Of a DNA stretch of 64,000 nt, positions 29,682-47,538 are shown piece after piece. The first letter of the stretch is position 1. Every line of letters begins with the position of its first letter. The position numbers and the translations under genes were made by a program. The stretch comes from a virus: IMG/VR virus record IMGVR_UViG_3300027749_000062, positions 1-64,000 of that record, one strand, 5' to 3'. The notes under the pieces are model-generated. The model did not search any database and was not told where the DNA came from. It saw only the letters and a list, made by a program, of their open reading frames with translations.

Positions 29682-30455
29682 TTAGTTCATCATGAATTCT
29701 AGTGGGCCACCGTAATTTGTTTCCATTTCTTGATGGAGTTGTGATATTTCTTCAATAGCTTCATCAAATACTTCTTTGCCATTCAATGTTATTCCGCCGG
29801 GTAATTGAATACCTCCAAATTTCTTCATGTTCTCACCCCAATTTTTCTTAATTAAAGCAGTAGCATAAAGTTTTAGAAATCGGTCTTGCCAAATATTTGG
29901 ATATGAAGTTGGATTAATACCACCATAAGCTTCGGCAACAACTATTGTTCCTACAGGAGCTTCTTGGTCACCCCAAGCCCAATCGATATACAGTCTTTGT
30001 GTTACTCTATTCCAACGAATAGGAACTTCTCCTGTAAACATTATTTCCAATGAACGAAGATGTTGTTGAGTCAGAACATAATTGACATAGGATGCTGAGG
30101 TAAAGTCATATAGTTCATTCAAGCGGAGTTGGTATCTTAGGTCAAACATATTAACATTAGCCTGAGAATCATTAACTGGAAATATACGAGAGATACCAAC
30201 AATTTGTATTGCATTATTGCTTTCGTCCAAAACACCAGATGCACTCAAGTATCTATTATTAATATCTTGTTGTGTTACTGAATGAATCCAATAGAATTTT
30301 TGTGTGCCATCAAAATGATAATCTTGCCAATATTGAATTGCATCATCTACTCTATCTTCAATTTGGTCTTGATCCATGTTAATATCAATAACAGGCGCAC
30401 CTAATCTACGAAGGCAGTAATCTATAAATTCTTGTCTATTATTAATTGTTGGCAT
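29682..30455 (-). CDS. 13: Neck protein gp13
   Basis: gp13 is the head completion partner of gp14. The 257 residues (T4 309) begin with NRQEFIDYCLRRLGAPVIDI and continue with DQIEDRVDDAIQYWQDYHFD, the signature of the family, then YTQQHLRSLEIMFTGEVPIR-like strands and a C-terminal GGIQLPGGITLNGKEVFDEA stretch. A GATAAATA box lies 22 bases before the ATG, and an AGGAG ribosome site follows it. The gene starts the neck, terminase and tail block. Confidence 0.92.
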   Translation of the reverse strand: MPTINNRQEFIDYCLRRLGAPVIDINMDQDQIEDRVDDAIQYWQDYHFDGTQKFYWIHSVTQQDINNRYLSASGVLDESNNAIQIVGISRIFPVNDSQANVNMFDLRYQLRLNELYDFTSASYVNYVLTQQHLRSLEIMFTGEVPIRWNRVTQRLYIDWAWGDQEAPVGTIVVAEAYGGINPTSYPNIWQDRFLKLYATALIKKNWGENMKKFGGIQLPGGITLNGKEVFDEAIEEISQLHQEMETNYGGPLEFMMN

Positions 30456-30505: not shown

Positions 30506-30847
30506 TTAACTTAGAGACACCCAAGAAGTGGTTGATTCGTCCCAAGAATACATCTTATCATCATTATTTCTTGGAACTGGTGCTTGCCATAAACAAGTAT
30601 CTTCGTTCAATATCCAAGATGGAAATGGTTGTGGTGGTATGAAAGCGTCACGGTCGTTATCATATGTATAACCGACACCAGCATAATTCTTACGCAATGG
30701 TGTACCACCTTCATTATGAACACCACCATGTGTATTGTAACTTGTTTGAATCCATCCGTGACCCATTGCACCTGTATTAATAAAATCTTGCTCTGCAACA
30801 AGTACCTGTGTTACTATTCCGTTCTCTACTTTTGCAAAATGGCTCAT
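30506..30847 (-). CDS. Conserved small protein following a polyglycine adhesin (paralogue 1)
   Basis: The 113 residues begin HFAKVENGIVTQVLVAEQDF and contain WIQTSYNTHGGVH, GTPLRKNYAGVGYTYD and FIPPQPFPSWILN, ending in DESTTSWVSLS. A paralogue with about 60-65 % visible identity is encoded at 39003-39347. Proteins of this kind occur in many cyanophage-like genomes and are annotated as hypothetical or structural. The domain is rich in Trp, Tyr and Pro and probably compact. Both copies follow a polyglycine adhesin gene directly, which suggests a chaperone, capping or tip role, but that is inference. It begins nine bases after the 1344-residue gene. Confidence 0.75.
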   Translation of the reverse strand: MSHFAKVENGIVTQVLVAEQDFINTGAMGHGWIQTSYNTHGGVHNEGGTPLRKNYAGVGYTYDNDRDAFIPPQPFPSWILNEDTCLWQAPVPRNNDDKMYSWDESTTSWVSLS

Positions 30848-30856
30848 GTGTTCTCC

Positions 30857-33800
30857 TTAACGAGCGTTAGCATACTTGAATGGGTTTTCGGCAAAGCAGG
30901 CGTAGATGTAAGTTCCGCCGCTTGTATTTTGCCGTACATCAGATGTTCTTATTTTGAATCCGTTGGACAGTGTGTCAATTGAATACGCACTTTCTTCTGC
31001 GTCAGAAGAATTTGGCTTTAATGTTAAATTTGCGGCGTTGTATGAAATTCGTGAGGAATCCCAAACAAACCAACTATCAATGTCATTGGTATGTTTAACT
31101 AATACAAACCGTGGACGGAATCCCGTGTACACAAACGGCCCATCACTTGAGCCGTTGCCCGTGTAGCTACCAAATGCGCTGTACCCTGCTATTGCGGAAA
31201 AAACGTAGGCAACATAGGTTCCAGCACTTGCGTTGATACCAGAAAAAGCGCCAATACCAAATACAGATGAGGTCGGGCCACCATTCCAGTAGCTTGCTGT
31301 TGTTGCTTGCGCAGCGGTGCTATTCAAATACAAATAACTTGTCGTTGGGTTAGTTAATGAACTGTGATAGGTAAGCCAATTTTCAGACCCAGAATTGCGC
31401 TGCTTCACAATAATCATGCTTGGCGTTACACCCAACCCGTGACCAACAGTGGCAGCGGTATTTGTACCCGTATAGGTAACCACGCTGAACCCAGCCGTAG
31501 GATTTGCGCTCACCGTGCTGGTGATAGAGCCGCTGGTGTTGGATACGCCTGCGCCGTTGGCTTTCCATTGCCAGCCAATGTAGGTTGAACCAGACAAGTT
31601 ACTGTCTGTTGCGCTGCCAGTTGTATTGTTGCCTAAATTAAACCCGTTTGAGTTAAAGGCAATCAGGTCACCACCAGAACCAGTTCCGTTATTTCTTTCA
31701 GCGTCAGTGATATTGCTAGTTAATACGACTCCAGCGCCTCTAAGAACATCAAATAAACCAGAGCTAGCCGCCGCACTTCGCTTCTTAATCCAAACCCAAT
31801 CAGGCTGAAATACTGTGCCATTGACCGTGTTGACAATGCTCTGAGTAGAACCATTGCCCGTGTAGGTCGTAGCCGCCATTTGCGTTGCGCCATTTGGTAT
31901 CGTAGGCGTGGACAGGTTGTAAGTGTTCAGCGCAACAAAGCCGCTTGGTGGGGTGTAGGTGAAGCCTTGTTGACCGAAGTTGGCGGAAATCGCTACAGAA
32001 TTTTCTGGCCTACAAGCAAATGCAAGCGGGCCTGTTCCTGCGACTATGCCGATTTGGTTTGTGCCAGCCGCTGGGTTTCCGCTTGAAATCCAAGTGTTAT
32101 TTTTGGCAAACCATACCTTGCGAGTTGCCCCGTCAAAAGCAATACCAAGCACATCACCAGACGCAAACGTAGCGGCCGATGAAGAAGTGGAGCCATTTAT
32201 AAAGTAGCTACTGTTGTCCCATGCAATTACCCCGCTGACGTTCATCGAACCGCTTGGAGAAATATTGGCAACAGTAATATCTGCAACAGCAACAGTAGGG
32301 TATGTTGTGTTTGAAAGCGTTAATTCTGCATACCAAAGTCCTGAACCTTGTGAAGCAATTGTGGACATAAACGCACCGCTTGGGTAATTTGGCCCTTGCG
32401 CTGTTAAATTCCCATTGGTTAAATATATTGTTGAAATATTATCTTTTCTCAATGGATTCCAAGTAGCGTAATTCGCCACTGTCGCGCTTGTCAGCGTTGG
32501 CACATCCGTCATGGAGTCGTAGGTTGTGCCAGTAGTCACGCTGATGTTGTTCGTCGTCCAGTTGTTGCCCTGCGGGCTGGTGTCGTAGCCCAGCGTGGTG
32601 GTCGATGTGTTGTTGCCGAAGGTCAGATAGAACCCGTTCGTGCCATACGAGCCGCCGTAGGTGATGGGTTGCCATACGCCGTAGCTGTTGAACGTGCCAA
32701 AACTGGATGGTGTCAGGGCTGCGCCGTCAATGAAGTTGACCTCAGCAAGATAGCCATCAAAATTTTCAGTGCTGGACGATGAACATCCTAAGTAATGGGC
32801 AATTGCGCTGTTGAATTGCGTATCAAAATTTTGTGATGGGTAGTTGGTGGCAGAAAATGAAGTAACTACAACTCCATTAACATAAATCAAAATACGATTT
32901 GATGCTGTTGCTTGCGTGGTGTCAACCGCAACTACTATGTGATACCAAGCAGATGGGTCACGATAAAGCGCAGTAGTGTAAGTTCCACCGGAAACTCCAG
33001 CGCTAAATGATACTTGAATAGCATTTGTTGAATCTAAAATAATACCACCCCAAGGAGAACCGCTATGCGCTGTAAAAAGAAATTGCGCCGCGCCTGTAGC
33101 AAGATTTCCGCGCTTAACCCAACCGCTCCATGTCCATGTTTTTTGGTTGGATGCTTTAGCGGGAGTTCGGTTCAAATAAGAATTGTTGGTGCTACGGAAC
33201 CGCAGTGAACGGCTTGCGTACTTGATGGGCGTTAGGTATCCGCTGGAGGTAAATGTGTGGATGACATTGCCGCCAGAGATGGTCACTGTGCCACCAGCCA
33301 TCTGCTGGGTAGAGCCGGCGTAAGAAATGATGACTACGCCAGAGCCGCCGTTACCGCCGGTGCCTGAAACATAAGAACCACCGCCGCCGCCGCCAGTACC
33401 GGCTGTTCCACTGGTGCCGGTTGTTGTGCCACTTCCTGCGCCTCCACCGCCGGCGCCGCCGGTGCCCGCAGTGCCACTACCATAACTACCGCCGCCGCCA
33501 CCGCCAGCATAGGTAACGCTTGAACCACTAATACTGCTTGCCGTGCCTGCACCGCCATTACCTGAAATTGAACCACCAGAACCATTTCCTCCAACTGCAC
33601 TAGCGCCACCGCCACCACCAGCGGGATAAGGAGAAGATAGTTGAGTTCCATTGCTGCCGCCATTATTACCTTGACTTGGGCTGGTACTTGGAGTATTTCC
33701 TGATCCTCCATTTGTTATAGAATTTGAAAATCCGCCACCGCCGCCACCAGATCCACCAGATCCGCCGGACAGTTCTCCACTATTTCCAATTCGTGCGCCG

Positions 33801-34891
33801 TTGCCGCCACCAGCTGAAGTAATATTTAAAAAAACTGAATTAGCGCCATTAGTTGATGCCGGTGTTCCGCTGCCACCAACTCCTCCACTTCCTCCACTGC
33901 CAACGGTGATTACATAATTAGAGTTGGTATCAATCGTGACCCCAGTACCAGTGCGAAAACCTCCAGCACCACCGCCGCCTGAAGCGCCTCCGCCACCACC
34001 ACCAACAACAAGATATTGTGCTGTCAGTGAAGACAAAGGCAACAGAGTTCCTGATGTGTTAAATATGTGAATTGTGTTTGTGCCATCAGTTGTGACAACT
34101 CCGCCACCGAATTGCTGTGCGCCAACGTAGGAGATGATTACGACACCGGAGCCTCCGTTGCCGCCCGTTGTACCACTAACTGATGCTCCACCGCCACCAC
34201 CACCAAGGTTTGCTGTACCGGAGCTACCAGCACCAGAGGATGCACCATTGCCACCACCGCCATTACCACCTGTGCCTCGAGTTGATTGAGTTGTAGCACC
34301 GCCTCCACCGCCACCAGCATAGTAGGTAGATGTGCCTGAGATGCTATTTGCAGTACCTACGCCACCAGCACCAGATTGCCCATTTACACCGGCAGCACCG
34401 ACCGCCGAAGAACCGCCGCCACCACCAGTTGCACTGTAAGAAGCATTGTCCGTAATACCTTGTCCACCAGCGTAACCTTGCACTGGGGATGTAGATGGTG
34501 TGTTTCCAGCGCCGCCAGCGGCTGGTGTTCCATCAGGGCCACCACCACTACCAGAACCACCAGCAACGCCTACGTTACTAGCGGTAACTCCTCCCCCACC
34601 TCCTGCCGAAGTGGTTGCGTTAAATGTGGAATCACTACCAGATGCACCAGTACTATTTGCACCAGCACCTCCAGCGCCAACTGTGACTGTGTAAGACAGT
34701 GATGGGTTTAATGATGCTGTTCCCGTCCGATAACCGCCCGCGCCCCCTCCGCTACCGCCGTGAGAAGCAACGCCTCCACCACCCGCGCCCCCGCCAGCAA
34801 CTACAAGATAACTGACGGTAACCGATTGCAGTCCAGTCCACCCAAAGGCAGCAAGTGCGGCCGCTCCAATTTTCGATAAACGTGGCATCAA
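30857..34891 (-). CDS. Giant modular adhesin: two polyglycine domains, LamG, SPRY-like and DUF7483-like heads
   Basis: The 1344 residues are ordered as follows. Two glycine-rich domains (about 25-260 and 285-540), each opening SYLVV or QYLVV and closing GGSGVVIISY, with Gly-Gly-Gly-Gly tracts like the polyglycine sandwiches of gp38-type adhesins. A LamG-type lectin domain (about 560-740, WTWSGWVKRGN, WYHIVVAVD, YLAEVNFIDG). A SPRY-like region (about 830-990, GLWYAELTLS, VLGIAFDGATRKVWFAKNN). DUF7483-like repeats (about 1005-1340, PDWVWIKKRS, FDVLRG, MIIVKQRN, YVFSAIAGYSAFGSYTGNG). It is probably the main receptor-binding protein. Codons in the LamG to DUF7483 part are much richer in G and C than those of the core genes. 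Confidence 0.82.
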   Translation of the reverse strand: MMPRLSKIGAAALAAFGWTGLQSVTVSYLVVAGGGAGGGGVASHGGSGGGAGGYRTGTASLNPSLSYTVTVGAGGAGANSTGASGSDSTFNATTSAGGGGGVTASNVGVAGGSGSGGGPDGTPAAGGAGNTPSTSPVQGYAGGQGITDNASYSATGGGGGSSAVGAAGVNGQSGAGGVGTANSISGTSTYYAGGGGGGATTQSTRGTGGNGGGGNGASSGAGSSGTANLGGGGGGASVSGTTGGNGGSGVVIISYVGAQQFGGGVVTTDGTNTIHIFNTSGTLLPLSSLTAQYLVVGGGGGGASGGGGAGGFRTGTGVTIDTNSNYVITVGSGGSGGVGGSGTPASTNGANSVFLNITSAGGGNGARIGNSGELSGGSGGSGGGGGGFSNSITNGGSGNTPSTSPSQGNNGGSNGTQLSSPYPAGGGGGASAVGGNGSGGSISGNGGAGTASSISGSSVTYAGGGGGGSYGSGTAGTGGAGGGGAGSGTTTGTSGTAGTGGGGGGSYVSGTGGNGGSGVVIISYAGSTQQMAGGTVTISGGNVIHTFTSSGYLTPIKYASRSLRFRSTNNSYLNRTPAKASNQKTWTWSGWVKRGNLATGAAQFLFTAHSGSPWGGIILDSTNAIQVSFSAGVSGGTYTTALYRDPSAWYHIVVAVDTTQATASNRILIYVNGVVVTSFSATNYPSQNFDTQFNSAIAHYLGCSSSSTENFDGYLAEVNFIDGAALTPSSFGTFNSYGVWQPITYGGSYGTNGFYLTFGNNTSTTTLGYDTSPQGNNWTTNNISVTTGTTYDSMTDVPTLTSATVANYATWNPLRKDNISTIYLTNGNLTAQGPNYPSGAFMSTIASQGSGLWYAELTLSNTTYPTVAVADITVANISPSGSMNVSGVIAWDNSSYFINGSTSSSAATFASGDVLGIAFDGATRKVWFAKNNTWISSGNPAAGTNQIGIVAGTGPLAFACRPENSVAISANFGQQGFTYTPPSGFVALNTYNLSTPTIPNGATQMAATTYTGNGSTQSIVNTVNGTVFQPDWVWIKKRSAAASSGLFDVLRGAGVVLTSNITDAERNNGTGSGGDLIAFNSNGFNLGNNTTGSATDSNLSGSTYIGWQWKANGAGVSNTSGSITSTVSANPTAGFSVVTYTGTNTAATVGHGLGVTPSMIIVKQRNSGSENWLTYHSSLTNPTTSYLYLNSTAAQATTASYWNGGPTSSVFGIGAFSGINASAGTYVAYVFSAIAGYSAFGSYTGNGSSDGPFVYTGFRPRFVLVKHTNDIDSWFVWDSSRISYNAANLTLKPNSSDAEESAYSIDTLSNGFKIRTSDVRQNTSGGTYIYACFAENPFKYANAR

Positions 34892-35401: not shown

Positions 35402-35824
35402 TTAACTTACTGGCACGTTAATTGTAGAACCTGAGCGATTCAAAATTGGCAATAAACCGTTACCAACAGGTATACTAATTGAGGAACCTGCTCTATTTAG
35501 GACGTATAAAGTAGTAGGTAATGTGCTCCAGCTAGCAGTAGTTCCATTTGTTTTTAAGAAATTATTCGCATAACCTGTTTGCGAAGGTAATGGAGAAAAA
35601 GTAGTCCATGCTGGAGGTGAATCTCCTCCACTGATTAGTACTTGTCCTGAAGTACCATATGCAGTATTACTCGTACCAAATGCAATACCTCCATTGGAAG
35701 TCAAAGTAACTACAGTTACATTATTACCTGTTTGAAATTGCAAAGAGCCGGTACTATCGGCACTTGTTTTAAGTCCTGGTACTCCTGTTATTAATCCTGA
35801 ATCTGCTGATATAATGCTAGACAT
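35402..35824 (-). CDS. Short fibre protein with shared N-terminal module
   Basis: The 140 residues open with a GLKTSADSTGSLQFQTGNN stretch that parallels the N-termini of the proteins at 35833, 37127 and 39366. A middle GTSGQVLISGGDSPPAWTT segment is a common phage fibre element and is also found in the 515-residue fibre at 39366. The C-terminus has two similar tips (LNRAGSSISIPVGNGLLPI and LNRSGSTINVPVS). It has no large head domain, so it may be a minimal or shortened fibre of the family, or a shaft that needs a partner. Confidence 0.72.
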   Translation of the reverse strand: MSSIISADSGLITGVPGLKTSADSTGSLQFQTGNNVTVVTLTSNGGIAFGTSNTAYGTSGQVLISGGDSPPAWTTFSPLPSQTGYANNFLKTNGTTASWSTLPTTLYVLNRAGSSISIPVGNGLLPILNRSGSTINVPVS

Positions 35825-35832
35825 TTTTTTCC

Positions 35833-36963
35833 TTATGCTGTGTATGTGCCGCTGGAGGTGAACGTGTGGATTGTGTTTCCACCAGAAGATGTTACTGTAC
35901 CGCCAGAACCGCGTTGTGAACCGGAGTAACTGATGATTACGATACCGGAGCCGCCATTGCCACCAATTCTTCCATTACTTCCGGCATTACCACCGCCGCC
36001 GCCGCCACCGCCAAGATTTGTAGTGCCAGCAACTCCATTTGCGCCGTTGTAAACAGCCCCGGCTCCACCACCGCCAGCGCCGCCTGCTCCGTTGGTTCCC
36101 CCGTTGATACCACCACCTCCACCACCACCAGCGTAATATGTGGAAGTACCTGAAATTGAAGAAGCAAGGCCAGCGCCGCCTGCACCAGAATTAGAGGTAC
36201 TAGAACCGCCTACTGCGCCAGCGCCACCACCGCCGCTGCACCCGTTTCCGCCACTGGCAGTTCCACCTGCATTACCTTGCCCTGCTGTGCCAGCGTAACC
36301 ACTGGTAGCGGGGCCACCGCCGCTTCCAGAACCGCCAGCAATTCCGTTACCAGTGCCTCCGCCAATTGCAGTAAGAGAACTAAGAACTGAATTGCCGCCT
36401 GCTGTTGCGGTGTAGGTGCCATCTCCTGTTCCACCAGCGCCAATGGTGACGGCATATGCAGTTCCCGAAGCAAGACTCAAAGAACTGCCCGACAACAACC
36501 CACCAGCCCCGGCTCCGCCACCTGCTGGCCCATAACCGCCCCCGCCGCCAGCCACAACTAAATAGCTAACTGCGTATGTAGTAACAATTGAACCCCAGTA
36601 GGAGCCGTTGTACAGTTCAAATGAAGACGTTGTGGAGTTGTAGCGAATCATGCCAGCCACTGCTGTGGGCTGCTGTGCAGTAGTGCCGATGGGCAATGTC
36701 AATGCACCCGTGCTATTCAAGGTGACGTTCTGGCTCGTGTCGATGGTGACCGCAGTCGTTCCTGCGCTTTTTATTGTTAGTGCCGTAGCTGCTGCTGAAC
36801 CAATAGTATTTACCGTAGCTGTGCCTGCAAAGGTAGTGTTCCGGCTTGCATCTATGGTGACCGCAGTTGTTCCTGCCGTTTGGAATGCAAGGACTCCTGA
36901 GGCATCTGCGGTCTGTATTAAACCACCTGTACCTGTATTGCTGGCGTTGATTGTTGTGGTCAT
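35833..36963 (-). CDS. Polyglycine-tipped tail fibre
   Basis: Residues 1-120 form the shared N-terminal module (GLIQTADASGVLAFQTAGTT, then DASRNTTFAG and the QQPTAVAGMIRYNSTTSSFE motif). From about 128 (SYLVVAGGGGGYGPAGGGAG) to the end runs a polyglycine domain closing with GGSGIVIISYSGSQRGSGG and TFTSSGTYTA. The last 40 residues are almost identical to those of the fibre at 39366-40913. Such domains are known at the tips of T2- and S16-like fibres where loops contact the receptor. The start overlaps the stop of a 56-residue gene by an ATGA, so it is coupled with it. Confidence 0.82.
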   Translation of the reverse strand: MTTTINASNTGTGGLIQTADASGVLAFQTAGTTAVTIDASRNTTFAGTATVNTIGSAAATALTIKSAGTTAVTIDTSQNVTLNSTGALTLPIGTTAQQPTAVAGMIRYNSTTSSFELYNGSYWGSIVTTYAVSYLVVAGGGGGYGPAGGGAGAGGLLSGSSLSLASGTAYAVTIGAGGTGDGTYTATAGGNSVLSSLTAIGGGTGNGIAGGSGSGGGPATSGYAGTAGQGNAGGTASGGNGCSGGGGAGAVGGSSTSNSGAGGAGLASSISGTSTYYAGGGGGGGINGGTNGAGGAGGGGAGAVYNGANGVAGTTNLGGGGGGGGNAGSNGRIGGNGGSGIVIISYSGSQRGSGGTVTSSGGNTIHTFTSSGTYTA

Positions 36964-37130
36964 GCTGGTGTATCCGCTGGTTCAGGTGTATTACCTTCAG
37001 CAAGCCATTCTAGGTAGGCTTCAGCAGTAACTAAACAAGATTCCTGCTTGCCATCAGACCATTCACGCCACACAACATTTTCTTGTTGAGTCGTTGGGTC
37101 TTTAACTAATTTCCAAATTGGTGTTGTCAT
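36960..37130 (-). CDS. 56-residue protein between two fibre genes
   Basis: Not part of a larger frame: ATG at 37130, TGA ending at 36960. The product starts MTTPIWKLVKDPTTQQENVV, has a WREWSDGKQESCL stretch and ends AYLEWLAEGNTPEPADTPA. It overlaps the upstream fibre gene by four bases and the downstream one by four bases (ATGA both times), so it is almost certainly translated with them. Similar short proteins occur beside tail fibre genes in other phages, often taken as assembly helpers. I give no function beyond that context. Confidence 0.72.
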   Translation of the reverse strand: MTTPIWKLVKDPTTQQENVVWREWSDGKQESCLVTAEAYLEWLAEGNTPEPADTPA

Positions 37131-38344
37131 AATTCACATCCTGTCGCAATAATTAAACTAGTCGCACTACTGCTTTGTAAAGAAGTTGCATTTCCAATAG
37201 TAAGACCACTTGAACCAGTTACATTTAAGGCAAAAGTTGACAAATTTGTTCCAGTTCCATAAATAGCTACTGTTCCTGCGGCAGAAGTTCCATAATTAGC
37301 TGGTATCACAGCAAAAGTTCCACTAGTCGTTATTCCTGTTGCCGCTACTCTAGGCTGAACAGGATAAGGTGCTGTAAAAATAGCCGCAGTTGATGCATAA
37401 CATTGTCCCGCAAACGGGAAATTGCTACTTGCACCAGAAACAGACCAAGCAGGACAATATCTCTGACATAAAGCCAACTCAGTACCATACGGGCGGTAAT
37501 CAAACGATGTAGCTGTGCTGCCTTTTTCTAGCTGTACGCCTGTGATGTAGAACGTGGCTCCGCTTGTGCCGACTACGCTGGTTGCGCCTGTAGCAGAACG
37601 ATAATCACCAGCCGCCCATGCTCCAGCCGTTCCGCTAAAAGTAGAGCCTACACCCAATCCAAAATTAACATAAACCCCAACCCCATTAGTTGCCCCCGCC
37701 CAAGTTCCAGTAGTATCACCAGCAATTGTTATGCTGATTGTTGTCCATGTATTTGCTGAAGAGATGGTGTATGTAAAAGGATATGACCTATTAAAACTTG
37801 ACCCATTTCCTAAACTTCCACCAAAAGTTCCAGTAAGTGATGAATAAACTCTAAAAGATAATGTAACTGTCTGTGCGTTTGCAGTACCCCAAGCCATATC
37901 TGCAAAATTAAACCCTTCAATTGCTTGAATAAATGTGTAAATGCTTCCAGCAACTATTGAAAATGCCGATTGGGATGTTATTCCAAAATAGTTATTAAAT
38001 CCAACTGGAGGAGTTACCGAGCCAGCATTTTGTTGCCCAACAACTTTACCAGTTGTCGGGTATTGAACAACTTGCCATCTATCTACCGTGTATCCACTAA
38101 TAGTATTCGCCGTTGCCGCCCCCGCATTACGCTGGTCAATCACCATCGCACCATTGATGATGCGGTTCTTGAAGCCAAAGGTGTTTGGCAGGTTTGCGTA
38201 GCCAGCAAAGGTGGCATTTTGCGAAGTATCCAGTGTGAGCGCAGTCGTGCCGTTGTTGGTCTGCAATACCAACGCACCTGTGGTATCAGCAGTAGCAACC
38301 AAACCGGTACTGGATGTTGTTCCTGCAGAAATACTTGATGCCAT
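37127..38344 (-). CDS. Tail fibre with carbohydrate-binding-type head
   Basis: The 405 residues comprise the shared N-terminal module (about 1-55, GLVATADTTGALVLQTNN, DTSQNATFAG) and a head (about 56-300) starting FGFKNRIINGAMVIDQRN, followed by TVDRWQVVQ, strands of a jelly-roll, and closing with TFYITGVQLEKGSTATSF and DYRPYGTELALCQRYC. This head is frequent in tail fibres of environmental phages and resembles carbohydrate-binding modules. The C-terminal 100 residues form a separate small beta domain. It couples to the 56-residue gene through an ATGA overlap. A sugar target is inferred. Confidence 0.82.
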   Translation of the reverse strand: MASSISAGTTSSTGLVATADTTGALVLQTNNGTTALTLDTSQNATFAGYANLPNTFGFKNRIINGAMVIDQRNAGAATANTISGYTVDRWQVVQYPTTGKVVGQQNAGSVTPPVGFNNYFGITSQSAFSIVAGSIYTFIQAIEGFNFADMAWGTANAQTVTLSFRVYSSLTGTFGGSLGNGSSFNRSYPFTYTISSANTWTTISITIAGDTTGTWAGATNGVGVYVNFGLGVGSTFSGTAGAWAAGDYRSATGATSVVGTSGATFYITGVQLEKGSTATSFDYRPYGTELALCQRYCPAWSVSGASSNFPFAGQCYASTAAIFTAPYPVQPRVAATGITTSGTFAVIPANYGTSAAGTVAIYGTGTNLSTFALNVTGSSGLTIGNATSLQSSSATSLIIATGCEL

Positions 38345-38353
38345 TTATTATCC

Positions 38354-38968
38354 TTAAAAAATTAACCAGCGTTGGCCGCTGGTAATTGTAACTGATTGTC
38401 CATTCGCCACAGTCACAGGACCAACTGTCATAGCATTATAACCTGCAGCAATTGTATAACTTGAACTTATCGTTGCTCTATTTAGGTATAAACCATTATT
38501 TGCCGTGACTACAGATGCTTGTAATTCACCGGTAGATGGTTTATATAACAAATTTGTATTGCTGGTATAAACTGTAGTCGCAGAACCAGTTGTTGATGCC
38601 GCAAACAATGGATACTCATAACTAGCAGTCGTTGTATCGTTGCTTAGAGTTGCACCACCAACAGAAGTCCATGCAGGAGATGCACCACCATATCCCTCAA
38701 ATTGGCTTGTCGTTGTATTGTAACGCAACATACCAGTAGCTGGACTTGCTGGTTGTTGTCCTGTTGTACCTTTACTTAATGTAAGAGCTCCAGTGGATGT
38801 AAAAGTGCCATTTTGGTTTGCATCAATCAAAAAGGCTTGTGTGCCGTTAGTGGATATAGCTAATTGATTTGTGTTTGGATAGTAAACACCCGTAGTTGTG
38901 CCAGCAGTACCACCTTGTATTGCTGGTGTCGTTGCGCTATTGTCTGTGCCGTTAAGAAATAATGGCAT
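38354..38968 (-). CDS. Short fibre with common C-terminal tip
   Basis: A 204-residue fibre. It has LFLNGTDNSATTPAIQGGTA at the start, GQQPASPATGMLRYNTTTSQ in the middle (as in the 35833 fibre) and a C-terminal stretch TVGPVTVANGQSVTITSGQR followed by Trp-Leu-Ile-Phe. The same closing motif ends the 747-residue repeat fibre at 40923-43166. The tip resembles the small terminal domains of cyanophage fibres. No head with lectin features is present, so a distinct receptor role is uncertain. It lies nine bases before the 405-residue fibre gene. Confidence 0.75.
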   Translation of the reverse strand: MPLFLNGTDNSATTPAIQGGTAGTTTGVYYPNTNQLAISTNGTQAFLIDANQNGTFTSTGALTLSKGTTGQQPASPATGMLRYNTTTSQFEGYGGASPAWTSVGGATLSNDTTTASYEYPLFAASTTGSATTVYTSNTNLLYKPSTGELQASVVTANNGLYLNRATISSSYTIAAGYNAMTVGPVTVANGQSVTITSGQRWLIF

Positions 38969-39002
38969 AGTTTACTCCACAATTTAGAATGGTTGTTTTC
39001 AT

Positions 39003-39347
39003 TTATTCCAGAACAACCCAAGAAGTAGTTGATTCATTCCATTCGTATATGCCGTCAGTAGGCATTGGTGTTGGTGCATCCCACAGGCAAGTTTCATCAT
39101 TCAATGTCCAAGATGGAAATGGTTGTGGTGGAATAAAAGCGTCACGGGTTCTATCGTAAGTAAAACCAACACCAGCGTAATTTTTACGCAATGGAGTGCC
39201 GCCGTTAGCGTGAACACCGCCTCGGGTATTATAACTAGTCTGGATCCATTCACCAGGACTTGTGTCTACGAATGTTTGAAAAAACTCAGGTTCAGCCACA
39301 ATGACTTGAACTACTACGCCGTTTGATACTTTTGCAAAATGTGCCAT
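39003..39347 (-). CDS. Conserved small protein following a polyglycine fibre (paralogue 2)
   Basis: The 114 residues parallel the 113-residue protein at 30506-30847 over their whole length: HFAKVSNGVVVQVIVAEPEF, then WIQTSYNTRGGVHANGG, PLRKNYAGVGFTYDRTRDAF and PPQPFPSWTLN, ending NESTTSWVVLE. Differences concentrate in residues 20-32 and 85-100. It starts 18 bases after the polyglycine fibre gene 39366-40913. The repeated pairing of this family with a polyglycine protein is the main clue to its role. Duplication within the phage or independent gain with the fibre are both possible. Confidence 0.75.
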   Translation of the reverse strand: MAHFAKVSNGVVVQVIVAEPEFFQTFVDTSPGEWIQTSYNTRGGVHANGGTPLRKNYAGVGFTYDRTRDAFIPPQPFPSWTLNDETCLWDAPTPMPTDGIYEWNESTTSWVVLE

Positions 39348-39365
39348 ATTAACTCCTTAACTTTT

Positions 39366-40913
39366 TTATGCTGTGTATGTACCGCTTGATGTAAATGTAT
39401 GTATAGTGTTTCCACCAGAAGATGTTACTGTACCACCTGTGCCTTTTTGCGAACCGGAGTAACTGATGATGACGATGCCGGAACCACCATTAGTGCCCGT
39501 ATTTGGGGCGTTCCATGTACAGCCCCCACCACCACCAGAATTTACAGTCGCGGCATTGGGATATGCGCCGCCGCCACCTGCACCGCCGCTGCCGTTACCA
39601 CCAGCGCCGGCACCACCACCACCGCCAGCGTAAGTAACACTGGAACCGGATATGCTACTTGCTGTTCCAGCACCACCCGTTCCACCAGAAGAACCAGAAC
39701 CAGAATTTCCGGCCGCTGAAGCGCCTCCGCCGCCACCACACGCATTGCCACCACCTCCACCGCCACCGGCATTTCCTTGCCCAGTAGTGCCAGAGCCGCC
39801 GCCATTACCACCGCGGCCGCCACCACCAGAACCACCAGAAACGCCAGTACCGGAACTACCGCCACCACCACCAAGAGCAGTTACAAGACTACCAATACTT
39901 GAATTACCGCCGGTATCACCAACACCGGTTGCCGCTGGTTGAGCGGATCCACCTGCACCAACAGTCACTGTGTATGCGGTTCCAGTAAGAACACTGGTAG
40001 ACGAAGTTAAAAGGCCTCCAGCCCCTCCGCCACCTGAACCTCCGCTGCCACCGCCACCGCCAGCAACTACCAAATAACTGACTGTGTAAAAACCTAAATT
40101 AGCTAATGTGGTGAGAAATGTTGGTGTAAGAGCCGTGCTGAACACAAACCATGAAGTGGATGCAGAACGATATATGTAAGATATTGATTGTCCCGGCACT
40201 AACCCAGGAATTGTGTTATTCAGCGTCTGTCCTGTATTAGCATTAAGTGTAAGTGTAGTAATTTCTTTTGTGCTACTGAAGCTAACCACCATTCCATCAC
40301 TAGGTGAAGCAGGCATTGTAATGGTTCCGGTAAGCAATGTACCGGCCGGGTTGATTATCAGCGTGTTGTAGGTGCTGAAAGTATATGAGAACCCCGTAGT
40401 CGGGACTAGGTAGTCGTAGTTTTGCACTACGCCTTTACCAGTGGATTTAATTGTGCCCGCGAACGTGGCGTTTTGGCTTGTGTCAATAGTGACCGCTGTG
40501 TTTCCATTAGTAGCAATAGTAACTGGACCACCAGACGAGGCCACAGATACGTTAGATGTGCCGTTAGAAATGGATGTTGTTGACAGAGTAGTCCAAGTAG
40601 GTGATGCACTCGATCCTGCTGAAGTCAGAACTTGTCCGTTTGTTCCAAAAGATGGTGTAGAACCTAAACCTATTGCTTGACTTGAATTAAGTGTGAGCGC
40701 AGTAGTTCCTGCACTTTTTAATGTGAGTGATGTAGCTGCTGCCGAAGTGATAGTGTTTGATGTAATTGAACCATTAAATGTTACATTTTGATTAGAATCG
40801 ATAAGAACTGCATTAGCTGAACTTGTACCAGTTTGTATTTGCAGATTGCCAGATAAATCTGACCTTACTGTAAATGCTGTTGTGAGTAAAGTTCCAGTTG
40901 ATAGTGTGCTCAT
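39366..40913 (-). CDS. Polyglycine-tipped tail fibre with long N-terminal shaft
   Basis: The 515 residues start with a variant of the shared module (SDLSGNLQIQTGTSSANAVL, then DSNQNVTFNG, a GTNGQVLTSAGSSASPTW segment and DTSQNATFAG), followed by a compact region (about 165-265). The polyglycine domain begins with SYLVVAGGGGGSGGSGGGGA near residue 282 and ends GGSGIVIISYSGSQKGTGG with TFTSSGTYTA. Compared with the 35833 fibre the last 40 residues differ at only two or three positions, while the N-terminal parts differ strongly, which indicates head exchange or recent duplication of the tip. Confidence 0.82.
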   Translation of the reverse strand: MSTLSTGTLLTTAFTVRSDLSGNLQIQTGTSSANAVLIDSNQNVTFNGSITSNTITSAAATSLTLKSAGTTALTLNSSQAIGLGSTPSFGTNGQVLTSAGSSASPTWTTLSTTSISNGTSNVSVASSGGPVTIATNGNTAVTIDTSQNATFAGTIKSTGKGVVQNYDYLVPTTGFSYTFSTYNTLIINPAGTLLTGTITMPASPSDGMVVSFSSTKEITTLTLNANTGQTLNNTIPGLVPGQSISYIYRSASTSWFVFSTALTPTFLTTLANLGFYTVSYLVVAGGGGGSGGSGGGGAGGLLTSSTSVLTGTAYTVTVGAGGSAQPAATGVGDTGGNSSIGSLVTALGGGGGSSGTGVSGGSGGGGRGGNGGGSGTTGQGNAGGGGGGGNACGGGGGASAAGNSGSGSSGGTGGAGTASSISGSSVTYAGGGGGAGAGGNGSGGAGGGGAYPNAATVNSGGGGGCTWNAPNTGTNGGSGIVIISYSGSQKGTGGTVTSSGGNTIHTFTSSGTYTA

Positions 40914-40922
40914 TTTTTTATT

Positions 40923-43166
40923 TTATAAAATTATCCATCGTTGTCCACTCGCAACATTAACATAGTAACTACTAGCTATGGTTAATGGGCCAACGGAAAG
41001 TCCATTTGTATTTGCTGCAATCGTTGCATTACTGGTTATATATGTACTGTTGAGAAGAATTAATGGAGCAGGACCAGTATTTGCCACAGCGAAAGCTGCA
41101 TTAGCTTGCGTGAAAGCACCGTTAGCATATATGCTGGCACTATTAGCCTGTGCATATGCGGAGTTAGCATATGTACCAGTTGTATTTTGACTACCATATG
41201 CAGAATTCGCTTGAGTGAATGCAGCTGTAATGCTGGTGTTTTGGGTTAAATTGATTGCATTTGATGAAGTAAAAGCCGCATTGGCTTGTACGAAAGAACC
41301 ATTGGCATATATTGAAGCACCATTAGCTTGTGCATATGCGGAGTTAGCATATGAACCAGACGTTATGGCATTAGCATTTGCATTATTGGCCGCCAAATAT
41401 GCTGAGTTGGCATATGTACCAGTTACATTTTGACCACTATATGATGCATTAGCTTGTACGAAAGCACCATTGGCATATATCTGCGCTGAGTTTGCGGTAT
41501 AGTATGCTGAGTTGGCATAAGTTGCGCTTACATTTTGAGAATTGAAAGCCGCATTTGCTTGTACAAAAGCACCGTTAGCATATATCTGTGCTGAGTTTGC
41601 AGTATAGTATGCTGAGTTGGCATATGTACCGGTCACATTTTGTGATGTATATGCAGCATTCGCTTGTACAAAAGCACCGTTAGCATATACACCAGCTGAA
41701 TTGGCGGCTACAAATGCAGAGTTGGCGTAAATACCAGTTGTGTTCTGTGAACCATAAGCTGAATTCGCTTGAGTGAATGCAGATGAAATACTTGTATTAT
41801 GTGTGCTGAATACCGAATTAGCAAATATGTATACTGCGTTAGCCTGTACAAAAGCACCATTAGCATAAACACCAGATGTTATTGCGTTGGCGTTTGCATT
41901 ATTAGCCGCCAGATAAGCTGAATTAGCATAGATACCAGTTGTTATAGAATTAGCATTGGCACCATTAGCTGCTAGATAAGCTGAGTTAGCATAGGTACCA
42001 GTTACATTCTGTGAACCATAAGCCGCATTAGCTTGTACGAAAGCACCATTTGCATATATCTGCGCTGAGTTTGCAGTATAATACGATGAATTGGCATAGG
42101 TACCAGTTGTTATTGCATTGGCATTGGCGTTGTTAGCTGCCAGATAAGCTGAATTGGCATATGTACCGGTTACATTCTGAGAAGCATATGATGAGTTTGC
42201 TTGTGTAAATGCTGATGAAATACTGGTATTCTGTGTGCTGAATACCGAATTAGCAAATATGTATACCGCATTTGCTTGAGTAAATGCGGAATTAGCATAG
42301 GCACCAGATGTTATAGCATTTGCGTTGGCATTATTTGCGGCTAGATACGCTGAATTGGCATAGGTACCAGATGTTATCGCATTCGCATTGGCGTTGTTAG
42401 CCGCTAAGTAAGCTGAATTGGCATATGTACCGGTTACATTCTGAGAAGCATAAGCCGCATTAGCTTGTACAAAGGCACCATTAGCATATAGACTTGCGCT
42501 ATTGGCTTGTGCATATGCTGAATTGGCGTAAGTGCCAGTTACATTCTGACTACCATAAGCCGCATTAGCTTGTACGAAGGCACCATTGGCATATAACTGA
42601 GCTGAATTAGCCGTATAATATGCTGAGTTAGCATAAGTGCCTGTAGTTATTGCATTAGCATTAGCATTGTTAGCTGCTAGGTATGCTGAGTTGGCGTATG
42701 TACCTGTTACGTTTTGAGAACCATAAGCCGCATTAGCTTGTACGAAAGCACCATTTGCATATATCTGCGCTGAGTTTGCAGTAAAATAAGCAGAATTGGC
42801 GTATGTACCTGTTACGTTTTGAGAACCATAAGCCGCATTGGCTTGTACAAAAGCTCCGTTAGCATATATTTGTGCAGAGTTAGCTGTATAGTATGCTGAG
42901 TTAGCGTATGATGCTGTCGCTGCAGGTGATGTTGTTTGTGTTGTTCCATCGACAAAGGTTATACCATTGCCTGTACCTGTAATTACATGATTTCCAGTAT
43001 ACACATTACCAACAACACCCAAACCACCAATCGATATGACAAGCGCACCAGTTAAATTTGATGTAGAATTATTTGCTCCAGAAATAGAAACATTTGAGCC
43101 TACCGTTATAAAGGTATCTACTGATGTATTTCCGTATATTCTTGTTCCACTTAGAAGTTTTGCCAT
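40923..43166 (-). CDS. YANSAY-repeat long fibre with common C-terminal tip
   Basis: The 747 residues have an N-terminal 75-residue module (YGNTSVDTFITVGSNVSISG, ITGTGNGITFVDGTTQTTSP), a shaft of roughly 600 residues made of repeated units such as QNVTGTYANSAYYTANSAQI and YANGAFVQANAAYGS alternating with YLAANNANANAIT, and a C-terminal tip (SVGPLTIASSYYVNVASGQR and Trp-Ile-Ile-Leu). The Ala/Asn/Tyr-rich repeats are probably a slender trimeric shaft. Units differ mostly by synonymous changes. It directly precedes the polyglycine fibre genes on the transcript. Confidence 0.8.
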   Translation of the reverse strand: MAKLLSGTRIYGNTSVDTFITVGSNVSISGANNSTSNLTGALVISIGGLGVVGNVYTGNHVITGTGNGITFVDGTTQTTSPAATASYANSAYYTANSAQIYANGAFVQANAAYGSQNVTGTYANSAYFTANSAQIYANGAFVQANAAYGSQNVTGTYANSAYLAANNANANAITTGTYANSAYYTANSAQLYANGAFVQANAAYGSQNVTGTYANSAYAQANSASLYANGAFVQANAAYASQNVTGTYANSAYLAANNANANAITSGTYANSAYLAANNANANAITSGAYANSAFTQANAVYIFANSVFSTQNTSISSAFTQANSSYASQNVTGTYANSAYLAANNANANAITTGTYANSSYYTANSAQIYANGAFVQANAAYGSQNVTGTYANSAYLAANGANANSITTGIYANSAYLAANNANANAITSGVYANGAFVQANAVYIFANSVFSTHNTSISSAFTQANSAYGSQNTTGIYANSAFVAANSAGVYANGAFVQANAAYTSQNVTGTYANSAYYTANSAQIYANGAFVQANAAFNSQNVSATYANSAYYTANSAQIYANGAFVQANASYSGQNVTGTYANSAYLAANNANANAITSGSYANSAYAQANGASIYANGSFVQANAAFTSSNAINLTQNTSITAAFTQANSAYGSQNTTGTYANSAYAQANSASIYANGAFTQANAAFAVANTGPAPLILLNSTYITSNATIAANTNGLSVGPLTIASSYYVNVASGQRWIIL
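41090..42910 (-). repeat. Tandem YANSAY repeats in the 747-residue fibre gene
   Basis: About 1.8 kb of imperfect direct repeats, basic units near 54 and 100 bases, coding for Ala-Asn-X-Ala patterned segments. Synonymous variation between copies is high. Confidence 0.9.
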
Positions 43167-43186: not shown

Positions 43187-44032
43187 TTAAAAAGGTGTGA
43201 TAGTGTAAGTGTATTCATCAAAGTAACCACTGACCATATACGTTCCAGTGTTGGTTCTGCGTTCGGCAAAATCTGGAGTCACTATCACTCCAGTAGCACC
43301 TATTCCCTGATAAGGAGTTAAATATCCTGCTTCAAATTGAGCACCCCAACCATAAAATCCTGTTGCACCGTCACCTACATAAGTAGGGTTTACAAGGCTG
43401 GCATTAGTGGTACTTTTTGTTATACCAATACTACCTGTTAATGTTCCGGCTCCTGCTAATGCGGTATTGGTGATATTACCAGTTACACTTACTCTATACC
43501 ATCCATTTCCTTTTGGTTCGGAAGTTGAAGTAATATATGTTCCGCTACCGGATGTTGCTATATTATTAATAACTCCGGTAGATGGATTTACATTTATGCC
43601 GATTCTATCAGGTTGTTGATATCCTGTTGCAAAATATAAAGTTAAGTAGGTCGATGCAGAATATGATTTTACATGTACCGACCATGTATAAGTAGCAACT
43701 CTTTCTAATACAGTCATTGGATCTGTGAGTATTGTATGTCTACCTAACGGTGCTGAGTTCAATAGTAAATCTGCGGTTAGCGTACTATTAGGTGCTGCTA
43801 TTGCATTTCCGGTTACTACTACTTGACCCGAGGCAGTGTTCCACCCGGTTGCGTTATCAAATTCTTGAGAAGAAATGGCTAAATTCTTAATAGGTGATTG
43901 TGTAACTTCATCAAATAGTGCCGCATATACTCCTGCGGGTCCTACTTTAACAGAACTATAGGCTACTTCATCAAATGCCACACTTGATTGAAGTATTCCA
44001 GTGGGAAACAGTTTAGTTATAGTTGTTGCCAT
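43187..44032 (-). CDS. Fibre-associated protein with carbohydrate-binding-like jelly-roll
   Basis: A 281-residue protein starting TTITKLFPTGILQSSVAFDE. Residues about 50-250 have the pattern of a jelly-roll module found in phage and CBM-like proteins: AISSQEFDNATGWNTASG, VTGNAIAAPNSTLTADLLLN, YTWSVHVKSYSASTYLTLYF, NGWYRVSVTG and the closing YGWGAQFEAGYLTPYQGIGA. It lacks the shared N-terminal fibre module, so it may be bound as a separate tip or a side domain. It overlaps the 1168-residue repeat fibre gene upstream by one base, which suggests joint assembly. Confidence 0.75.
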   Translation of the reverse strand: MATTITKLFPTGILQSSVAFDEVAYSSVKVGPAGVYAALFDEVTQSPIKNLAISSQEFDNATGWNTASGQVVVTGNAIAAPNSTLTADLLLNSAPLGRHTILTDPMTVLERVATYTWSVHVKSYSASTYLTLYFATGYQQPDRIGINVNPSTGVINNIATSGSGTYITSTSEPKGNGWYRVSVTGNITNTALAGAGTLTGSIGITKSTTNASLVNPTYVGDGATGFYGWGAQFEAGYLTPYQGIGATGVIVTPDFAERRTNTGTYMVSGYFDEYTYTITPF

Positions 44033-47000
44033 TATCCAAATACCGTGTCTAAACTACCTGTAGCTGAGTTATAATATTGATAGACTACACTTACATTGCT
44101 ATTGACAAATCCAACTCTATTACCAACATAAATACTGTCTGCAACGCCGACACCACCAAACACTTGTAATGCACCTGTAGTATTTGATATAGATGTGGTT
44201 GTATTTGTTATTATTAAATTACCAGTAATTGTTACATTACCGGTAATTGTACCACCAGTATTTGCATTGACTGTATTGTTTGCTCTTGTATAAGCCGCAT
44301 TAGCTTGTACAAAAGCACCATTGGCATATAATGATGACGAGTTTGCAACATTAAATCCGGCGTTTGATTGTACAAAAGCACCGTTAGCATATAGTTGTGC
44401 TGAGTTTGCAGTAAAGTAAGCAGAATTGGCATATGTGCCGGTTACATTCTGACTACCGTAAGCAGCATTCGCCTGAACAAATCCACCGTTAGCATAAAGT
44501 TGTGCCGAGTTAGCCGTATAGTAAGCTGAGTTGGCATATGAACCAGTCGTGTTCTGACTTATGTAAGCTGCATTTGCCTGTGTATATGCATTTGTGATAT
44601 AAGTGAATACATTATATCCACTAACATATATTGTGTTGGCTATGACATTTGCTTTTACAGTATTAGCTATTAGATTTGCACGTTGATAAGAAGGATCTGT
44701 AATTATAATATTGTTATTGGGTGATACTTCTGGTGTATAACCTTCAAATATATTCCATTCTTTTGTATCCGAATCTCGGAAAAAACCTGTGTGTGCGTTT
44801 GTTCCATTATTATAATGTGCAGCAAAACCAATATCTAATGCATCTGAGTAATAATTTCCTAAACCCAATAATATCAAAGTATCTTTTACAGTAAAAGATT
44901 CAGTATTGGTTGTTATAGTAGTACCTAATACAGTCAAGTTACCTTGAATTGTTGCATCTTGGACAATGGTTAAATTGCCTGTAATTGTTCCGCCTGCCAA
45001 AGGTAAAGCATTATTAGCTTTCAAGAATGCAGAGTTTGCATATGACCCAGCTGAATTAGCAAAACTAAGTGCAGTATTGGCATATGTACCTGTCACATTC
45101 TGGCTACTATAAGAAGCATTGGCTTGTACAAAAGCACCATTTGCATATAACTGTGCTGAATTGGCCGTATAATATGCCGAGTTAGCATATGTGCCTGTAG
45201 TTATTGCATTTGCATTGGCGCCGTTAGCTGCTAGATAAGCCGAGTTTGCATAAGAACCAGATGTTATGGCATTCGCATTTGCATTATTAGCCGCCAGATA
45301 AGCTGAGTTAGCATAAGTTCCTGTTACATTTTGACTAGTGTATGATGCATTTGCCTGTACGAATGCACCATTAGCATATAACTGTGCTGAATTGGCGGTG
45401 TAATATGCTGAGTTTGCATAAGAACCAGATGTTATTGCATTCGCATTTGCGTTATTAGCCGCTAAGTAAGCTGAATTAGCATAAGTTCCTGTTACATTTT
45501 GACTAGTGTATGATGCGTTAGCTTGAGTAAATGCACCATTCGCATATACACCAGCAGAATTTGCAGAAAGAAATGCTGAGTTAGCATATGCACCTGAGGT
45601 TATTGCATTTGCATTAGAATTGTTTGATGATAAAAATGCAGAATTGGCATATGAACCGAATGTTATTGCATTAGCATTCGCACCATTGGCCGCCAAATAA
45701 GCTGAGTTAGCATAGGTACCAGTTACGTTTTGGGAAGCATAAGCTGAATTTGCCTGTACAAAAGCACCATTGGCATATAACTGAGATGAATTGGCTGTAT
45801 AATATGCTGCATTAGCATATGTACCTGTTACGTTTTGTGAACTATAGGCCGCATTGGCTTGTACGAGAGCACCATTCGCATATACGCCAGCAGAATTTGC
45901 TGTTGTAAAAGATGCATTAGAATATGCATAAGGTGCAGCCGCAGTAACTTGATATGTTGTATCGGGAAATATTACACTAACTGAAGTATTAACAGAATTT
46001 GCATATATGATATTAACACCACCAATATTTCCACTCGAACCGGTTGTGGTAAAATAAGCAGCTGTTACATTATTTGCAACTGTTAAATTATTGGATACAG
46101 TTAAGTTGCCTGCTGTAATTATTGTGCTTGTATTTTGTAATGCCGTATTTGCAACTCCAAAAGATGCATTGGCCTTAACAAAAGCACCATTCGCATATAC
46201 ACCAGCAGAATTTGCTGTTGAGAATGCTGAGTTAGCGTAAATACCAGTAGTATTTTGAGAACTAAATGCTGAGTTAGCGTAAATACCAGTAGTATTTTGA
46301 GAACTAAATGCTGAGTTAGCGTAGGCACCAGTTGTTATTGCATTGGCATTCGCACCATTAGCCGCCAAGTAAGCTGAATTGGCATATGTACCGGTTACAT
46401 TCTGAGAAGCATATGCTGAATTTGCTTGCAAGAAAGCTGCGTTTGCCGCGCTACCAGCTGAAGTTGAATTTGCTGTTGCGAAGGCAGCATTAGCCTGAGC
46501 AAATGCACCATTAGCATATACACCAGCAGAATTTGCAGTATAGTATGCTGAGTTAGCATATGTACCAGATGTTATTGCGTTAGCATTTGCACCATTGGCT
46601 GCTGTATATGCGGAGTTAGCATATGTGCCAGTCACATTTTGTGAAGCATATGATGAGTTTGCTTGTGCAAACGCTGATGTAATACTGGTGTTCTGTGTTA
46701 AATTAATTCCATTCGATGAAGAATAGACCGAATTTGCTTGAGTGAATGCACCATTGGCATATGTACCAGATGTTATTGCGTTGGCGTTTGCATTATTGGC
46801 TGCTAAGTAAGCTGAATTAGCATAAGTTCCAGTTACATTTTGACTAGTATATGCAGAATTGGCTTGTACAAAAGCACCATTCGCATATAAACTCGCTCCA
46901 TTTGCTTGTGTAAAAGCGGAGTTAGCATAGATGCCGGTGGTATTTTGACTATTATAAGCCGAATTGGATTGTACAAAAGCACCATTAGCATATAATGCTG

Positions 47001-47538
47001 CCGAATTGGCGGTATAATATGCTGAGTTGGCATATGTGCCTGTTACATTTTGACCAGTGTAAGATGCATTTGCCTGAGCAAAAGCACCATTAGCGTATAT
47101 CTGTGCTGAGTTTGCGGTATAGTATGCTGAGTTAGCATAGGTTCCAGTTACGTTTTGTGTATTAAAAGCTGCATTCGCTTGAGCAAAAGAACCATTAGCG
47201 TATGTTTGTGCCGAATTGGCTGTATAGTACGCACCATTAGCATAGGTACCTGTAGTGTTTTGGCTAATGTAGGCCGCGTTTGCCTGAATGAAAGCGCCAT
47301 TAGCATATAGTGCCGCAGAATTTGCTTGAGAATGACTAGAATTTCCATGAATATATGCTGCATTTGCTTGTAAGAAAGCTGCATTCGCTGATAAGAACGC
47401 AGAATTGGCATATGATCCAGTAGAGTTTTGACTACTATAAGATGAGTTGGCCTGAAGATATGCGGTATTTGCATAGTCACCTGCAACCCGTACATCTTTA
47501 TTCTCTTGATTACCTAAAATGGTATAAATTGTCTTCAT
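44032..47538 (-). CDS. Very long YANSAY-repeat fibre
   Basis: The 1168 residues are mostly repeated units of YANSAYYTANSAQLYANGAF and QANASYTSQNVTG type, with YLAANNANANAIT insertions. Two non-repeat islands occur: near 500 (TIITAGNLTVSNNLTVANNV, then NIGGVNIIYANSVNTSVSVI) and near 865-985, a structural module with GNLTVLGTTITTNTESFTVK, LILLGLGNYYSDALDIGFAA and HTGFFRDSDTKEWNIFEGYT, which recurs in the 884-residue protein. The C-terminus has a second such small module (GTITGNVTITGNLIITNTTT). It is probably a long fibre shaft or tape-like element on the tail. Confidence 0.8.
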   Translation of the reverse strand: MKTIYTILGNQENKDVRVAGDYANTAYLQANSSYSSQNSTGSYANSAFLSANAAFLQANAAYIHGNSSHSQANSAALYANGAFIQANAAYISQNTTGTYANGAYYTANSAQTYANGSFAQANAAFNTQNVTGTYANSAYYTANSAQIYANGAFAQANASYTGQNVTGTYANSAYYTANSAALYANGAFVQSNSAYNSQNTTGIYANSAFTQANGASLYANGAFVQANSAYTSQNVTGTYANSAYLAANNANANAITSGTYANGAFTQANSVYSSSNGINLTQNTSITSAFAQANSSYASQNVTGTYANSAYTAANGANANAITSGTYANSAYYTANSAGVYANGAFAQANAAFATANSTSAGSAANAAFLQANSAYASQNVTGTYANSAYLAANGANANAITTGAYANSAFSSQNTTGIYANSAFSSQNTTGIYANSAFSTANSAGVYANGAFVKANASFGVANTALQNTSTIITAGNLTVSNNLTVANNVTAAYFTTTGSSGNIGGVNIIYANSVNTSVSVIFPDTTYQVTAAAPYAYSNASFTTANSAGVYANGALVQANAAYSSQNVTGTYANAAYYTANSSQLYANGAFVQANSAYASQNVTGTYANSAYLAANGANANAITFGSYANSAFLSSNNSNANAITSGAYANSAFLSANSAGVYANGAFTQANASYTSQNVTGTYANSAYLAANNANANAITSGSYANSAYYTANSAQLYANGAFVQANASYTSQNVTGTYANSAYLAANNANANAITSGSYANSAYLAANGANANAITTGTYANSAYYTANSAQLYANGAFVQANASYSSQNVTGTYANTALSFANSAGSYANSAFLKANNALPLAGGTITGNLTIVQDATIQGNLTVLGTTITTNTESFTVKDTLILLGLGNYYSDALDIGFAAHYNNGTNAHTGFFRDSDTKEWNIFEGYTPEVSPNNNIIITDPSYQRANLIANTVKANVIANTIYVSGYNVFTYITNAYTQANAAYISQNTTGSYANSAYYTANSAQLYANGGFVQANAAYGSQNVTGTYANSAYFTANSAQLYANGAFVQSNAGFNVANSSSLYANGAFVQANAAYTRANNTVNANTGGTITGNVTITGNLIITNTTTSISNTTGALQVFGGVGVADSIYVGNRVGFVNSNVSVVYQYYNSATGSLDTVFG
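44280..47470 (-). repeat. Tandem YANSAY repeats in the 1168-residue fibre gene
   Basis: The longest block of imperfect direct repeats in the window, interrupted by two unique islands. The tandem pair at 46205-46310 is nearly perfect (AFSSQNTTGIYANS twice). Such arrays are prone to recombination that changes shaft length. Confidence 0.9.

Follow-up and report, generated by a model that had tools for sequence, protein, structure and literature searches.

Ordered fibre genes with related N-terminal modules and exchangeable heads in a T4-like freshwater phage

Introduction

Why should a phage encode several fibre proteins that begin alike and end differently? The question is raised by a window of 64 kb (positions 1 to 64,000) of the 104,241-base IMG/VR virus record IMGVR_UViG_3300027749_000062, from a T4-like freshwater phage, in which four fibre genes, named here by their lower coordinates as 35402, 35833, 37127 and 39366, have a common N-terminal module of about 50 residues in front of different C-terminal heads. 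Comparison with other viral contigs reveals that the modules are homologous, fall into types, follow an order and occur in low copy number per type, that the heads behind them are exchanged, and that type C fibres lie next to a gene ending in a domain that we call SGQRW. Judged from sequence, these genes probably encode four separate fibres whose position-specific N-terminal adaptors descend from a common ancestor and carry heads that can be exchanged; the adaptors possibly plug onto the SGQRW tip of the protein before them.

Results

A shared N-terminal module in four types

The four fibres and their modules are as follows.

39366..40913, minus strand: fibre D (C-like N-terminal type), Gly_rich_2 head, 515 residues
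40776..40913, minus strand: N-terminal module type D, MSTLSTGTLLTTAFTVRSDLSGNLQIQTG...
37127..38344, minus strand: fibre C, predicted CBM4-like beta-sandwich head and C-terminal beta tip, 405 residues
38207..38344, minus strand: N-terminal module type C, MASSISAGTTSSTGLVATADTTGALVLQT...
35833..36963, minus strand: fibre B, RYN element and Gly_rich_2 head, 376 residues
36826..36963, minus strand: N-terminal module type B, MTTTINASNTGTGGLIQTADASGVLAFQT...
35402..35824, minus strand: fibre A, short tip, 140 residues
35687..35824, minus strand: N-terminal module type A, MSSIISADSGLITGVPGLKTSADSTGSLQFQT...

An initial annotation of the window proposed that these four N-termini are related, and both alignment and profile hidden Markov models (HMMs) bear this out. 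With leave-one-out HMMs of the first 60 residues, 35402, 35833, 37127 and 39366 score 23.3, 39.2, 42.8 and 23.3 bits, respectively, each exceeding all of its 2,000 composition-preserving shuffles (maximum across the four genes, 14.2 bits), and the N-termini of other window genes reach at most 4.9 bits. The gene 38354, which had been grouped with the fibres through an RYN element, does have this element (QQPxxAxGM(I/L)RYN(S/T)TTS), in common with 35833 only, and it lacks the module itself, as its HMM score of 9.0 bits is below that of its best shuffle (11.1 bits).

The module consists of two halves, an N-terminal lead with the core TADxxGxLxxQT, followed by D(T/A)SQNxTFAG. Both motifs are shared as originally described, but the second is not peculiar to the start of the protein: HMM positions from about 25 to 55 (the DxSQNxTF half, DTSQNATFAG here) match a generic shaft repeat that recurs within 35833 (residue 74) and 39366 (residue 143) and that is also found, as RIDSSGNVGIGT and variants, inside the fibres of many relatives. 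The N-terminus-specific part is confined to approximately residues 1-24. In 69 out of 72 near-full matches on independently chosen viral contigs, where loci had been fetched by head gene or gp13, the lead and the TADxxGxLxxQT half lie at the protein start, non-T4 phages included. The module has no Pfam match. AlphaFold predicts four short strands for the C and the D module alike, at moderate to low confidence (block means within the module of about 50-78), and the two predictions are consistent with a single fold.

Within this family, type A reads MxSIISADxGxxSGxxGLK (35402), type B MTTTINASNxGxGGL (35833), type C MASxISAGTTSSTAL (37127) and type D MSTLSTGTLLTTAF (39366); type D was counted with C. 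Arrays of this kind (L245, L272, L301, L231 and others) also contain further N-terminal types, among them E, M..(L/I)(D/N)GT.G, and G, GDTSGxVTLSAPAVAGT.

Different heads behind related N-termini

That these related N-termini lead into different C-termini, as had been noted, is confirmed by domain and structure searches: two polyglycine domains, one sandwich resembling a carbohydrate-binding module (CBM) and one short tip, the last in 35402. Gly_rich_2 (PF21722) is found in 35833 at 54 bits and in 39366 at 56 bits, against a Pfam cut-off of 24.3. The modelled head of 37127 is a beta sandwich that matches CBM4/11/22 structures (Foldseek probability 1.00, target TM 0.66-0.68, E about 4e-4) and is followed by a C-terminal beta domain; the model suggests a jelly-roll, CBM4-like, putative carbohydrate-binding domain, and named relatives of this head carry the annotation of tail fibre or carbohydrate-binding protein.

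A small phrog_7759 protein (MAHFAKV or MSHFAKV) is encoded at 39003-39347 and again at 30506-30847 in the window, and at 9403-9741 in the contig L165. Of the 17 cases in which a gene lies upstream of it, 15 have a polyglycine-headed gene there, and the small protein may serve such heads as a dedicated chaperone or cap.

39003..39347, minus strand: small phrog_7759 protein (MAHFAKV...), putative head-specific partner of polyglycine heads

Types keep their slots, and heads do not

If the four fibres are related at their N-termini, do they compete for one place or occupy several? Three T4-like genomes, the window and its relatives L174 and L242, have four module types each. The relatives keep D, a type E protein with SGQRW, C, and both A and B, with modules 65-80% identical to those of the window, and the gp13 on the L174 contig is 92% identical to the window gp13. 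Among these three genomes, modules of the same slot have identities of 0.65-1.00 (mean 0.81), compared with at most 0.58 for modules of different slots; the order of A and B is reversed in the window relative to the other two.

This slot conservation extends to copy number and order in the wider set of contigs. When sequence-sharing contigs were grouped and one locus was taken per group, only 4 out of 71 pairs within one contig were of the same type, as against 27.8 +/- 3.9 under the null (minimum 14 in 20,000 label shuffles), and two of the four exceptions belong to the window lineage, which carries both D and C. This sharper, per-contig test was run after an earlier version on pooled contig groups, which had given P = 0.052 and was blurred by strain pooling. 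Type C lies ahead of A in 46:0 cases and ahead of B in 19:0 cases, and never after them. Since the types are slot-conserved, rarely repeated and strictly ordered, non-equivalent positions are favoured. The initial annotation had suggested a single docking site on the virion for the four fibres, as a mixed or alternative population, and the homology of the modules, with the TADxxGxLxxQT core in common, agrees with this model. However, a single site would permit repeated types and any order of types, and we find types tied to slots, almost never duplicated per contig and in fixed order, so that the one-site part of the proposal appears unlikely.

The other part of that proposal, interchangeable heads on a shared N-terminal module, fares better. 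Between the window and L174 or L242 a head is retained in no slot, and the only large head that they have in common is the C head of the window, which sits in slot B of the relatives. Among all contigs, the larger head families are found behind every major N-terminal type. The head of 37127 has a counterpart of 91% DNA identity in L085, in a gene with an unrelated N-terminus; the similarity breaks off at residue 58, the module edge, which points to recent exchange at that edge.

37457..38173, minus strand: exchanged head segment of 37127, residues 58-296, 91% DNA identity to L085

L165, a non-T4 contig with a phrog_283 capsid protein, has a C-B-MAHFAKV cassette resembling that of the window.

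The SGQRW domain of the upstream neighbour

The gene directly upstream of C-type fibres encodes a conserved C-terminal domain ending in SGQRW(V/I/L)(V/I)(F/I/L) or a variant. The window holds this unit of SGQRW gene and fibre twice, as 40923 (SGQRWIIL) before 39366 (D) and 38354 (SGQRWLIF) before 37127 (C).

40923..43166, minus strand: trunk-like protein 1, YANSAY repeats, C-terminal SGQRWIIL domain; directly before fibre D
40926..41060, minus strand: C-terminal SGQRW domain of 40923, proposed as socket for module D
38354..38968, minus strand: trunk-like protein 2, N-terminal type E (MPLFLNGTDNSATTP), RYN element, C-terminal SGQRWLIF domain, 204 residues; directly before fibre C
38357..38491, minus strand: C-terminal SGQRW domain of 38354, proposed as socket for module C

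An SGQRW-domain gene stands directly upstream of 57 out of 60 fibres of type C, 19 out of 65 of type B, none of 63 of type A and 31 out of 1564 background open reading frames (ORFs), and in most pairs the two genes are 9 nt apart, stop to start, or overlap in ATGA. Among type G genes, 20 of 39 come directly after an SGQRW-like gene, whose motif usually carries S in place of Q. The residue in SG(x)RW is Q in 54 out of 57 partners of C, compared with 12 out of 46 partners of B, G, F and H (Fisher p = 9e-14). The upstream trunk proteins themselves are diverse at the N-terminus and form many families, with a C partner in 17 of these; the proteins were grouped by their N-termini, single-linkage clustering having collapsed through repeats. 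In a scan with the D module as single query only the window phage itself was recovered; an alignment query added two more distant cases, L328 and L329, and in both, which lie outside the sample, the SGQRW gene is again followed by a D/C fibre. We also sought the SGQRW domain fused to the module in one polypeptide and found no such fusion in the locus set.

The pairing might arise without any contact between the proteins, if the junction were a hitchhiking block whose conserved DNA serves as a recombination anchor. The conserved segments do adjoin in DNA at these short junctions, and L100 shares a block across the junction with window positions 38117-38807 at 73% DNA identity. However, in the SGQRW tail and module, codon positions 1 and 2 are 70-84% identical and position 3 only 38-42%, which indicates conservation at the level of protein and not of DNA; together with the tail residue Q, which follows the partner type, this makes hitchhiking decidedly improbable. 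Because the block is kept as protein and the tail residue tracks the partner type, we favour functional coupling of the SGQRW tail and the C module.

It could also be supposed that the module is a folding cap or trimer nucleus of the beta shaft, with types that stop paralogous trimers from mixing and attachment left to other features. The second half of the module is indeed a generic shaft repeat, the predicted module is four short strands, and divergence of types within one genome would also block mixed trimers. This supposition leaves the fixed order unpredicted, and likewise the SGQRW gene upstream of C and never of A, and we regard it as rather unlikely.

Several points weigh against position-specific adaptors and a plugged tip. 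A model of the tail and module fused has a pLDDT of 62 and no significant match in the Protein Data Bank (PDB), so docking is unsupported by it, and gene order and pairing are explicable as inherited operon structure. Queries with modules or heads supplied most of the loci, the contigs are only approximately independent, and the assignment to types E and G follows simple rules; typing rules and tests were refined on the same loci, with L328 and L329 as the only out-of-sample cases.

The locus and its neighbours

All genes of the array are on the minus strand, in the transcription order 40923, 39366, 39003, 38354, 37127, 35833, 35402, 34899, 30857, 30506 and gp13, and the fibre-rich stretch terminates at the gp13-like gene.

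29682..30455, minus strand: gp13-like neck protein, T4-like position marker at the end of the fibre array

The phage has further T4-type genes (portal, sheath, terminase and gp13- and gp14-like neck genes) as well as a long tail fibre gene ending in Peptidase_S74. Could the additional fibre genes be no more than unexpressed remnants of past exchanges? 35402 is short, and such regions of T4-like phages are highly variable (PMC7029224). Yet the ORFs are intact and tightly packed, the complete fibre set is present, unchanged in sequence, in three contigs assembled from separate metagenome data sets, and four module types persist in two relatives, so that decayed remnants are very improbable. The 104 kb record, possibly incomplete, yielded neither a reverse transcriptase (PF00078) nor a serine resolvase (PF00239), and fibre switching by a diversity-generating retroelement or an invertase is thus without support.

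Three other features adjoin the array. The 1,344-residue protein at 30857-34891 has two Gly_rich_2 domains and DUF7483 behind a different N-terminus (MPRLSKIGAAALAAFGWTG), and may be another fibre, with a plug type of its own. Long YANSAY/ANGAFVQANA repeat proteins are encoded at 40923-43166 and 44032-47538, of which only the first ends in the SGQRW domain, and between the two lies a weakly LamG-like protein (43187-44032; Laminin_G_3, below cut-off).

Discussion

We propose that an ancestral N-terminal adaptor has split into position-specific types, each of which holds its own place in an ordered array, and that recombination at the module edge freely trades the heads behind the adaptors. The adaptor itself would be a small beta-rich cap (about residues 1-24) with the first shaft repeat. 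The types may mark non-equivalent attachment points: the C-type module would plug onto the SGQRW tip made by the adjacent upstream gene, A- or B-type fibres would take a second attachment point, and all fibres together would form a multi-headed receptor-binding complex on the virion. In the T4-like lineage of the window the array looks doubled, with 40923 and D, 38354 and C, and then B and A.

Parts of this architecture have counterparts in known systems. The XD and TD domains of Ackermannviridae tail spikes make known contacts. Both domains are gp10-like by comparison with T4 baseplate proteins (PMC10253068), and none was detected at the sequence level in Pfam and PHROGs scans of the window fibres. 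The branched tail spikes of that family (CBA120 TSP1-4; PMC11414711) are also encoded in one cluster of several receptor-binding proteins with role-specific conserved N-terminal regions and exchangeable C-terminal heads, and the window fibres likewise comprise several putative receptor-binding proteins with conserved N-termini and variable heads. In contrast, the modules described here are about 50 residues long and without a Pfam match, and the heads are lectin-like, polyglycine, S74 or C1q instead of beta-helix enzymes. The adsorption complex of RaK2/phiK64-1 (Alcyoneusvirus; PMC10253068) similarly joins many fibre proteins via conserved N-terminal domains, but these are jumbo phages whose depolymerase fibres have CBA120-like domains, of which there is no sign here. 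The T4 fibritin (wac) locus (PMC3797505) resembles the array in its T4-like position directly upstream of gp13 and in having a conserved N-terminal stretch (about 50 residues) ahead of C-terminal domains that are swapped. However, fibritin is a single gene with a coiled-coil shaft, whereas the window has several fibres predicted to be rich in beta structure; neither Pfam nor PHROGs gave a fibritin family match for these fibres, and module and head are both predicted as beta.

The same genomic position is occupied in the T4-like pelagimyophages and cyanomyophages by the host recognition cluster (PMC7029224), which lies between VrlC and gp14 and forms a hypervariable island rich in fibres; the available part of that account reports the island and its fibres, without typed N-terminal modules, an order rule or SGQRW pairing. 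Host recognition modules are traded across phage morphologies in Alteromonas phages A5, V22 and P24 (PMC10579305) as well, but there the whole module is found in a few phages, whereas here adaptors and order are common and heads are exchanged. An isolated phage, the Methylophilales phage Venkman (MT375522), encodes gp58, ending in SGQRWVIV, directly followed by gp57, with module and CBM-type head. It differs in being non-T4 and in having one module-type fibre in addition to G- and E-type fibres, and its annotation says only tail fiber. The Manatee Spring podovirus ctXG6705 also has the architecture, which is thus present in named phages and is not pointed out in the open literature searched. 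A megablast of the region against named phages gave no match, nor did tblastn with the B module alone, the latter probably owing to low-complexity filtering.

It is tempting to extend the proposal beyond this lineage. Unrelated aquatic phages, T4-like and non-T4, may share a plug-and-socket code, in which typed plugs (A, B, C/D and possibly E and G) would sit at non-equivalent points, C plugs would match the preceding SGQRW tip and heads would be tradable between tail types; we put this forward tentatively, as a possibility that we consider less than likely. The occurrence of the ordered system in many unrelated phages suggests a shared route to swap receptor binders without rebuilding the tail. 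If true, this would provide a rule, readable from sequence, for the placement of fibres in uncultured phages, and would account for the way in which heads pass between phages whose tail types differ. The SGQRW tip and the module would be small, testable parts for studies of multi-receptor binding, and many genes of aquatic phages now labelled 'hypothetical' or 'tail fiber' would gain defined roles.

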